A stretch of DNA of 32,382 nt from Candidatus Collierbacteria bacterium (lineage in GTDB: Bacteria > Patescibacteriota > Microgenomatia > UBA1400 > MFAQ01): NCBI GenBank assembly GCA_903873735.1, contig CAIQPO010000067.1, positions 1 through 32,382 of the forward strand. Direction: 5' to 3'. Of the stretch, positions 465 to 9,093 are shown one piece after another (the first letter of the stretch is position 1; the number at the start of each line of letters is the position of its first letter). The notes under the pieces are model-generated. The model was not told the origin of the DNA and made no database searches. It saw nothing but the letters and a program-made list of their open reading frames with translations. A program made the position numbers and the translations under genes.

Positions 465-1214
465 CTATTTCCACACCCCTCTCATTTCCTCTGGAAGTGT
501 CAGTGCAAGTTTGTACATCAACTCTTCTACACTAGGATACACTTTTGGATCAGTCTGTGTGGTGACCTCACCCACAGATAATCGTACTCTTCTTCCAATA
601 TTTATAGTGTCTCGATCATACTTTCCTAAATAAGATACACCCACGGGGACATAAATTACCGGCGCTAGCATTCTACCTGCAGCCACTACGCCTGGTTGTG
701 CCAAAATCATCTCTCCTGTTTCGCTACGGTGTCCTTCTGGACTAATCATGAATCCAGTTGGGACTCCTTCTGACCTAAGTTGCTTAAGTCGTCGCATCAG
801 ATCCATATATGTAGATCTAGCTTGCTCTTCTGTATATCCATATTTTGGATTGTTTACCTGATACGACTGAATCACTCTAATTATTTCTACGCCACATTTT
901 TTTGCCATCTCCACCAAAAAAGAAAAACCTTTACTTTTGGGATCATCGGGATCAGTATGAGAAAAAGATGCTGGAGCAAGTAAATGCCTCGTGTGGTGCG
1001 GGTCAATCCTCTCAGCAATGTGTGCTGCTACTGCTGGATCGTTGTAGGAAATGTGATTGAAGTAAAGAATAAAGCTATACTCTCTATTCTCGTCTAAAAA
1101 TTCCCTTACTTCTGTGATTCTACTTTTTGTTTCGCTTCCAATCTCCGGGCAATAAAGCAAACGCGGCGTTCCGTCTAGTAATATTTTCCTGTTTAGGTCT
1201 TCAATACTAGCCAT
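465..1214 (-). CDS. PlsC-like 1-acylglycerol-3-phosphate acyltransferase family protein
   Basis: The 249-residue protein carries the two acyltransferase signatures: N-H-x4-D (H54 to D59, in F-N-H-I-S-Y-N-D) and P-E-G-H-R (residues 159-163), which bind and acylate a glycerolipid hydroxyl in the PlsC superfamily. There is no obvious membrane span, so it may be peripheral; the true acceptor cannot be told. A longer reading opens at a TTG at 1223, but the ATG at 1214 is preferred: an extended -10 element (TG-A-TATAAT, on the minus strand at 1232-1224) ends nine bases before it and overlaps the stop codon of the upstream alkyltransferase gene. The mRNA would then be leaderless or nearly so. It probably is also read through from the alkyltransferase gene. 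Confidence 0.8.
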   Translation of the reverse strand: MASIEDLNRKILLDGTPRLLYCPEIGSETKSRITEVREFLDENREYSFILYFNHISYNDPAVAAHIAERIDPHHTRHLLAPASFSHTDPDDPKSKGFSFLVEMAKKCGVEIIRVIQSYQVNNPKYGYTEEQARSTYMDLMRRLKQLRSEGVPTGFMISPEGHRSETGEMILAQPGVVAAGRMLAPVIYVPVGVSYLGKYDRDTINIGRRVRLSVGEVTTQTDPKVYPSVEELMYKLALTLPEEMRGVWK

Positions 1215-1224
1215 ATTCGCCAAA

Positions 1225-1551
1225 TTATATCAGTTTGAATTTATGCCGAATTTTCTCAAAATTTACACACTTTCCGTTTTCAAATCTGACACCCTCTCTT
1301 TCAAGCAGCTTAATTTTTTCAGTGATTTTTACACCCACAATCTCACCACAAAAACCTCCGATTTTGCCACTTGCAGATACTACTCTATGACAGGGTACCT
1401 TTGGAGCAAATGGATTCTCTCGCAGAGCATTTCCCACCGCCCTAGCTCCACCACCCACTACTTTAGCCAAATCTCCATAAGTAGTTACCTCTCCCTGACT
1501 CACCTCCATTAGTTTTGAGTACACTTTGCTTTGGAATTCACTCATTTTCAT
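1225..1551 (-). CDS. O6-alkylguanine-DNA alkyltransferase, DNA-binding domain protein (MGMT/ATL family)
   Basis: The 108-residue protein is the C-terminal domain of the Ogt/Ada/MGMT family alone, with the helix-turn-helix segment ending in R-A-V-G-N-A-L and the active-site motif P-C-H-R-V (C54). The cysteine is kept, unlike the alkyltransferase-like proteins that have tryptophan there, so real methyl transfer from O6-methylguanine is plausible. The N-terminal domain of full-length Ogt is missing. A TTG-started reading from 1569 would begin inside the T-tract of the upstream terminator; the ATG at 1551 is preferred, six bases after a TATGAT -10-like element (1563-1558). The ATG at 1545 is another option. 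The gene leads into the acyltransferase gene ten bases downstream. Confidence 0.85.
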   Translation of the reverse strand: MKMSEFQSKVYSKLMEVSQGEVTTYGDLAKVVGGGARAVGNALRENPFAPKVPCHRVVSASGKIGGFCGEIVGVKITEKIKLLEREGVRFENGKCVNFEKIRHKFKLI

Positions 1552-7220: not shown

Positions 7221-7284
7221 GACATAATTTTCACTCACATAATACCAGTTATATAAATATACATTCCCAAATGAATTTACTAAC

Positions 7285-7309
7285 AAAAAATCTCTCGGCA
7301 AGCGAGAGA
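7285..7309 (-). terminator. Intrinsic terminator closing the second tRNA-linked segment
   Basis: On the minus strand TCTCTCG and CGAGAGA (7309-7303 and 7297-7291) form a stem with a five-base loop and are followed by six U residues (7290-7285). Confidence 0.88.
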
Positions 7310-7316
7310 CTTTTCA

Positions 7317-7337
7317 TTGTGACCCCGGCGGGATTCG
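7317..7337. repeat. Copy of the tRNA-Glu 3' end (21-bp direct repeat, copy 1)
   Basis: These 21 bases are identical to 7463-7483, which hold the last part of the tRNA-Glu T-arm and acceptor plus three flanking bases. The copies are 146 bases apart in the same orientation. Confidence 0.9.
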
Positions 7338-7431
7338 TCTTCAGTCGAATTATGTTCGCTTCAGGACCCGGCTCGACAGGTTCGTTACGAAACTGTCTCC
7401 GCCATGTTCTCATCCCGCTGCTATTACAAAC

Positions 7432-7455
7432 AAAAAAGTTTGGACAAGCCAAACT
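7432..7455 (-). terminator. Intrinsic terminator of tRNA-Glu
   Basis: AGTTTGG/CCAAACT stem (7455-7449 with 7443-7437 on the minus strand) with a five-base loop, followed by six U residues. It starts about 11 bases after the tRNA 3' end. Confidence 0.88.
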
Positions 7456-7462
7456 CTTTTAT

Positions 7463-7483
7463 TTGTGACCCCGGCGGGATTCG
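7463..7483. repeat. tRNA-Glu 3' end (21-bp direct repeat, copy 2)
   Basis: Partner of 7317-7337; this copy belongs to the intact tRNA gene. Confidence 0.9.
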
Positions 7484-7539
7484 AACCCGCGATCTATTGG
7501 ATGAGAACCAATTATCCTAGACCACTAGACGACGGGGCC
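7466..7539 (-). tRNA. tRNA-Glu (anticodon CUC)
   Basis: The 74-base minus-strand segment folds as a full cloverleaf. The acceptor GGCCCCG pairs with CGGGGTC (one G-U pair), the anticodon stem ATTGG/CCAAT holds the seven-base loop TTCTCAT with anticodon CTC, and the T-arm is GCGGG-TTCGAAT-CCCGC. The discriminator is A and CCA is not encoded, so the tail must be added enzymatically. It has its own terminator just downstream. Confidence 0.96.
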
Positions 7540-8820: not shown

Positions 8821-9093
8821 CTAGCGAGGTCCGAAGAGAGATTGAACCAGAGCAGGGTTGAAGAAGAGCACTGCTCCAGCCACAATCACCAGGAGGATGA
8901 ACAAACATCCCATTCTGGATATGATATTTCCCAGGCCATCAAGTAGGGTGTGAAGTAGCTGGCTGGTCCAATGCAGTTTGGCACGCGCCTCAAGCACTTT
9001 GGCATAGGCTTCATGCTCCATCGCTTCTGCACGGCCTTTGGCCTCGATCACTTCTGGACGATTTTCTTCATCTTCGTAATCATAATCACTCAT
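8821..9093 (-). CDS. Small single-span membrane protein with acidic N-terminus, orphan
   Basis: The 90-residue protein starts with a very acidic tail (M-S-D-Y-D-Y-E-D-E-E-N), continues with an alanine/glutamate-rich, probably coiled-coil helix (residues 15-40) and ends in one membrane span (about 60-80) with only a short outer tail. It would be membrane anchored by its C-terminal region with the acidic part in the cytoplasm. No family recognised. The start is fixed by GGAGG five bases before the ATG; promoter and terminator are both strong and private. Confidence 0.75.
   Translation of the reverse strand: MSDYDYEDEENRPEVIEAKGRAEAMEHEAYAKVLEARAKLHWTSQLLHTLLDGLGNIISRMGCLFILLVIVAGAVLFFNPALVQSLFGPR

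Follow-up and report, generated by a model that had tools for sequence, protein, structure and literature searches.

Behind a tRNA-Glu(CTC) gene in the window, a 32,382-nucleotide stretch of DNA from a Candidatus Collierbacteria genome (G000), lies a GC-rich segment that can fold on itself and that ends in a copy of the 3' end of the tRNA. This raises the question of what the segment is and how it came to carry part of its neighbor. Read along the minus strand, the order is the tRNA gene, a terminator-like hairpin, the GC-rich fold, the 21-nt tRNA 3'-end copy, and a second hairpin. We refer to the folded element as E and distinguish the following features:

7465..7539, minus strand: tRNA-Glu(CTC), the host gene, CCA not encoded (ARAGORN; Rfam RF00005, 62.9 bits)
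7430..7455, minus strand: terminator-like hairpin 1, AGTTTGG-CTTGT-CCAAACT plus a T-run, with a CTNRY pentaloop; it opens the inserted unit and is missing at empty sites (from the sequence)
7406..7418, minus strand: 5' arm GCGGGATGAGAAC, a near-inverted copy of the T-loop and 3' strand of the T-stem of tRNA-Glu (GCGGGATTCGAAC) with 2 mismatches (from the sequence)
7370..7403, minus strand: arm B, GGCGGAG-ACAG-TTTCGTAACGAAC-CTGT-CGAGCC, a stem with a GGA/GA internal loop
7338..7368, minus strand: arm C, GGTCCTGAAG-stem-ACTGAAGA, a stem with a GA/GA tandem
7317..7337, minus strand: direct copy of the tRNA-Glu 3' end from the T-loop onward, 21/21 identical to 7463-7483 (from the sequence; equivalent copies occur at other loci)
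7284..7309, minus strand: terminator-like hairpin 2, TCTCTCG-CTTGC-CGAGAGA plus a T-run (from the sequence)
7318..7424, minus strand: the whole element E, as matched by covariance model R1 (109.1 bits, E 9e-35; the model includes the window sequence)

An earlier note on this DNA had described a GC-rich fold closed by GCGGGAT/ATCCCGC and placed between two terminators, all of which we confirmed from the window sequence. The closing stem pairs GCGGGAT at 7418-7412 with ATCCCGC at 7334-7328 (minus strand), and this ATCCCGC belongs to the direct 3' copy, which thus closes the stem with the 5' arm. The exact 21-base copy that had been reported is also there (7337-7317 against 7483-7463 on the minus strand, 21/21 identity) and reads TTGTGACCCCGGCGGGATTCG on the plus strand. 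So is the second terminator with a similar loop (7309-7284); hairpins 1 and 2 share a pentaloop type, CTTGT and CTTGC respectively. Hairpin 2 probably begins a second unit that is truncated, comparable to what is seen behind tRNA-Gly in L008. The segment has no 5' acceptor arm, as had been remarked, and no D- or anticodon arm either. At this locus ARAGORN and Rfam called the tRNA and returned no match for the folded segment. The RNA fold energy of the window copy gave a z-score of -1.4 for the segment and -3.1 with the second terminator included, and its DNA fold energy gave -2.6. The fold energy of the single copy is just moderately unusual, and the case for an element rests on recurrence and covariation.

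A DNA search of G000, a genome whose SecA has its best matches in Microgenomates/Patescibacteria, located related segments behind tRNA-Gly(CCC), tRNA-Thr(CGT), and tRNA-Lys(CTT) and at contig ends, and a covariance model built from five copies raised the count in this genome to 15. When 89 related genomes were searched, copies were found in G000 and 12 others, with well over 100 matches in total. Of the 15 further genomes in the family of G000, 11 carry E at 2-23 copies each (20 in G007, 11 in G006), and one carrier in this search lies outside the family, a genome of a different family with a single copy. A second model, built from 79 copies, detected E in 7 of 374 genomes of the class with ten candidates scored per genome, and all seven belong to the same family. 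With every candidate scored, this model still found no E in the family members G001, G003, G004, and G008. The tRNA ends of G001, which is of the same genus as G006, are essentially clean, with decayed remnants at tRNA-His and tRNA-Gln. E is therefore common but lineage-restricted, being confined to one Microgenomates family apart from the single copy noted above. Many of these genomes are fragmented, and repeats break the assemblies at E sites. Exact-pattern searches of IMG/VR (three patterns) and of plasmid and phage records found no match to E, although such narrow patterns make these weak negatives; Rfam holds no family that matches the element.

In general form, a unit consists of a terminator-like hairpin with a CTNRY loop followed by a three-way junction of ~100 bases, E, with the intact host tRNA on one side and, on the other, a displaced copy of its 3' end. 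Such E-units measure ~130-230 bp without an ORF, and most of them are geneless. E begins 33-51 nt behind a tRNA or tmRNA on the same strand in 56 of 74 copies, and one copy lies 48 nt behind a tmRNA. The 5' arm repeats, in inverted orientation, the T-loop and T-stem 3' strand of the host tRNA, and the 3' part of the unit is a direct copy of the same tRNA from the T-loop to its end. The core between them, made up of arm B (GNCGGA-stem-GAGNC, often with a GTAAC loop) and arm C (TCCTGAGG-stem-ACCGAAGG), is common to all copies and unrelated to tRNA. The match of both arms to their own tRNA was equaled in none of 10,000 permutations over 56 loci, and the T-arm of the adjacent tRNA was the best or tied-best match at 44 of these 56. 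The CTNRY pentaloop occurs in 36 of 39 hairpins between a tRNA and E as against 11 of 117 hairpin-T-run sites elsewhere. The first four copies had suggested that tRNAs with C34 (NNG-reading) were the sole hosts; this idea was dropped, as all kinds of tRNA and tmRNA carry E. Since many of the 3' copies show decay, some of the units may be relics.

The core forms a three-way junction in which 90.9% of the alignment cells are paired. Its covariation score was 0.600 compared with 0.214 ± 0.008 in shuffled alignments and at most 0.098 in slid controls, with the proviso that the alignment was fitted to the covariance model, which favors a high score. Double-sided changes were seen in 25 of 28 pairs. 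Both DNA strands of E fold into the same junction, with z-scores of -2.5 to -4.3. Together, the copies beside tRNAs in relatives and the covariation of their fold bear out the earlier view that the segment is not random sequence, and they answer the objection that it might be present in this genome only.

Comparison of the same tRNA sites across genomes showed filled and empty states. At tRNA-Thr(CGT) the next gene starts 3 nt behind the tRNA in G010, compared with ~145 bp of hairpin and E in G002 and G014. At tRNA-Arg(CCG) the site is empty in G010 and G012, and in G009 a 228-bp insert holds an inverted E together with its hairpin and another copy of the tRNA 3' part, after which backbone of the G010 type follows directly. 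What the empty relatives lack, precisely at the tRNA end, is a unit of 145 bp at tRNA-Thr(CGT) and one of 228 bp at tRNA-Arg(CCG). G006 has an equivalent insert at tRNA-Arg(CCG) with a longer tRNA copy that starts in the anticodon loop. At tRNA-Arg(TCT), a site that is empty in G010 and filled in G007, the native terminator of G010 stands behind the displaced tRNA copy in G007, which shows that the CTNRY hairpin arrived with the unit. The displaced fragments start in the T-loop, or in the anticodon loop for inverted units. Both loops are classical sublocations of tyrosine-recombinase crossover.

Some sites also hold genes. At tRNA-Ser(GGA) there is no insert in G009, E with a response-regulator ORF in G014, and E with a different ORF in G006, with the same backbone afterwards; at tRNA-Ser(GCT), E is followed by three different ORFs in three genomes. 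Two units carrying the 3' copy of the same tRNA enclose a 124-aa ORF at tRNA-Asp (L085), a 249-aa ORF plus a Y1 (IS200-like) transposase gene at tRNA-Gln (L086; transposase gene at L086:3792-4223, minus strand), and a Na/Ca exchanger ORF at tRNA-His (L083). Many arrays have one unit and one ORF, with the last ORF not closed by another E. The tandem and inverted copies, together with the small ORFs between or behind copies, indicate what appears to be cassette turnover at E-units. One contig of G000 (C57, locus L013; 3.9 kb, with a radical-SAM gene) has the same E at both ends, and this 3.8-3.9 kb sequence may be a cassette in one or several copies, or a circle.

From these results we consider it somewhat probable (roughly 0.6) that the window segment is one of the E-units, small mobile DNA elements that, in a single Microgenomates family, insert at tRNA 3' ends and also at those of tmRNA and 5S rRNA genes, with the folded single strand acting as an attC-like recombination site. 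At ~140 bases, it has the look of a mobile element, anchored at tRNAs and similar to integrons, that has not been described before. When a single-stranded integron attC site folds, its two ends come together as a double-stranded core site on which the recombinase acts (PMC2727003). By the same logic, folded single-stranded E would be the recombination site, and its closing stem, formed by the inverted and direct copies of the host T-arm, would present half of a double-stranded T-loop target to a tyrosine recombinase. A T-loop crossover is documented for mycobacteriophage Ms6 (PMC1762012). Recombination with the tRNA would regenerate the tRNA, add a terminator, and leave a boundary for cassette exchange. 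The tRNA would then be both the target and the repaired product, and gene cassettes could be captured beside it. Candidate enzymes are the two Xer-type recombinases, the sole tyrosine recombinases that the carriers have in common, acting in trans, or an activity supplied by visiting elements. A bolder form of this proposal is tentative: that the T-loop serves as an attI-like landing site and the folded three-way junction with host-matched arms as attC, so that a resident Xer-type recombinase loads cassettes behind most tRNA genes with no integron integrase.

An unlikely explanation is that the segment is an ordinary tRNA-site scar, the remnant of classical islands or prophages whose att sites contain conserved hairpins by coincidence, with a fold that has no role of its own. 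A displaced tRNA 3' fragment beside an intact tRNA is a hallmark of islands and a sign of site-specific integration, in most cases through a tyrosine integrase (PMC4383910), and tRNA-Asp of G002 indeed houses a classical integrase element. However, this element, with its 333-aa integrase, entered a tRNA-Asp already bearing E, and this E matches the older 3' end of the gene; we therefore rejected it as the owner of E. Passive scars would not be expected to show strong covariation over dozens of different tRNAs or a 5' arm that tracks the host tRNA, and there is no gene in most units.

Quite unlikely is a MITE- or REP-like element moved by a transposase (HUH Y1 or another) that makes a long target-site duplication, with the 5' arm as a target-pairing guide. 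This would fit a small, non-coding, multicopy, hairpin-rich element with a 22-nt duplicated target, and the 5' arm mirrors upstream sequence at some non-tRNA sites too. Y1 transposases are present in several carriers, but their distribution does not match: they are absent from the carriers G000, G005, G006, and G014 and present in the E-free G001, G003, G004, and G008, and we rejected Y1 as the mover on these grounds. The length of the duplication also varies, since it starts in either the T-loop or the anticodon loop and runs to the end of the tRNA, a pattern shared with tyrosine recombination. No transposase family is known to make such duplications.

Other candidates for the mover fared no better. 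A serine recombinase was rejected since G007 has none despite its 20 copies, and a retro-mechanism was rejected since no reverse transcriptase (PF00078) was found in 12 genomes, carriers among them. We found no recombinase linked to E; the two Xer-type proteins common to carriers also occur in E-free genomes. They scored 113 and 83 bits with TIGR02249, below the integron-integrase cut-off of 265. Carriers of the family have no extra PF00589 protein except in G002.

It is improbable that E acts as a functional non-coding RNA behind tRNAs, such as a read-through transcript that would use its 5' arm to pair with the T-arm or its copy and so regulate tRNA processing or level. Its constant place behind tRNAs and tmRNA, its complementarity to the T-arm, and the strong covariation of its secondary structure would suit such a role. 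By contrast, a terminator lies between the tRNA and E, and E is cleanly absent in close relatives with the same tRNAs. G-U pairs are nearly absent in arm B: at the DNA level, 4 of 853 pairs are G-T compared with 30 of 673 in tRNA acceptor stems (p 1e-7). Wobble is more frequent in arm C and in the closing stem than in arm B. The depletion in arm B and the terminators between tRNA and E make a folded DNA recombination site more likely than an RNA gene, with the wobble depletion as indirect support. The earlier note had read the segment as a functional RNA with its own terminator. Recurrence and covariation uphold a conserved folded element; the RNA reading is disfavored because of the clean empty sites, the inverted, tandem, tRNA-less, and 5S copies, the G-T depletion, and the fact that terminator 1 is part of the inserted unit. 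The further suggestion that the segment was perhaps derived from a tRNA is right for the host-specific arms but not for the core. A decayed tRNA duplicate, despite the genuine 3'-end copy, is refuted by the multicopy non-tRNA core shared by all copies, the lack of any other tRNA arm, and the negative ARAGORN and Rfam results.

We then compared the favored reading, a mobile E-unit with a folded recombination site, with known systems. The consensus of the integron core boxes is RYYYAAC for R'' and GTTRRRY for R'. The arms of E read NNTTCGAAC / (GTT)CGAAN, are set by the host T-loop, and have just GTT/AAC in common with the R boxes. Integron attC sites (~60-140 nt) resemble E in folding into a conserved structure with unpaired stem bases although their sequence is poorly conserved, in recurring between small variable ORFs (as E clearly does at tRNA-Asp, tRNA-Gln, and tRNA-His), and in having a GTT-adjacent boundary (GTTC in the T-loop of E, GTT in the R box of attC; PMC2727003). 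In contrast to integrons, E has no IntI gene and no R'/R'' consensus boxes, forms a three-way junction rather than a single hairpin, and is anchored at tRNA genes and not at attI; its ORFs are of mixed orientation and most units are geneless. We therefore rejected membership of E among the integrons, given that carriers have Xer-type recombinases only, no IntI, and no R boxes.

Islands that target tRNAs (Islander, PMC4383910) share with E the regenerated intact tRNA, a displaced 3' fragment that marks the distal end, crossover in one of two tRNA loops (T-loop or anticodon loop), and empty sites in relatives. They differ in that the E-unit is ~130-230 bp with no integrase, has a folded core with a host-matched inverted arm, and occupies the ends of many tRNA genes in the same genome simultaneously. 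Tycheposons are likewise tRNA-anchored with variable cargo and a tyrosine recombinase, but they are 4-200 kb long and encode the recombinase, and no conserved folded element is reported there (PMC10872708). MITEs and REP (BIME) elements resemble E in being short, non-coding, multicopy, hairpin-forming, and non-autonomous, whereas E targets the tRNA 3' end with host-specific arms, and comparison of the Y1 distribution gave no matching transposase. Going by its sequence features, the E-unit appears to be neither an integron nor a standard genomic island and would work partly like both. In the open-access literature we found no earlier description of such elements, nor of integrons in this bacterial group. 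If the favored reading is true, it would explain how streamlined Patescibacteria gain and lose small genes without obvious integrases, it would add a second case, independent of integrons, of folded DNA serving as a recombination site, and it would show a single family of elements fitting its arms to many different tRNAs per genome. E-units also explain the assembly breaks behind tRNA genes in these genomes.

A few copies occur at non-tRNA sites without an obvious 3' copy. In G009, an inverted E lies at the 3' end of an apparent 5S rRNA gene (L311:1850-2210, contig C7), with the 3' end of the 5S gene and its terminator directly repeated on either side, so the targets extend beyond tRNAs. The same genome has arm-B-like copies outside a tRNA context at L312:1850-2067, L313:1850-2069, L315:1850-2055, and L316:1900-2071. 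Each of these copies is preceded by a hairpin, and its 5' arm mirrors what lies immediately upstream of that hairpin; three of the four have a common GTCATTGCGGGGTTT...GTGGCAATC frame.

Other observations concern single loci. The element in tRNA-Asp of G002 (L278:4296-10148, contig C1, ~664.3-670.1 kb) is 5.7 kb long, encodes the 333-aa tyrosine recombinase, and splits the gene close to the anticodon stem, with the former 3' half and its two E-units now at the far end of the element. Both ends of contig C57 (L013) and the end of contig C34 (L015) have exactly 77 bp within E in common, as at an assembly-graph junction. Between L103:1643-1761 and L261:5438-5556, from the genomes G000 and G006 of two different genera, 119 bp are identical and the flanks diverge right behind the tRNA copy; this reflects either recent transfer or a mis-binned short contig of G000. 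Behind tRNA-Lys(CTT) of G000 (L014, minus strand, 1202-1010), two degenerate elements are apparently fused, or one has an insert of ~100 bp. Finally, a second GC-rich palindrome (like TGCCTGCCGGCAGGCAGG) lies at the CCC of displaced tRNA 3' copies and is apparently a nested small mobile repeat (L083 ~9030-9065; L101 ~780-810, minus strand; L102 ~1480-1530, minus strand; L309 ~2125-2155).
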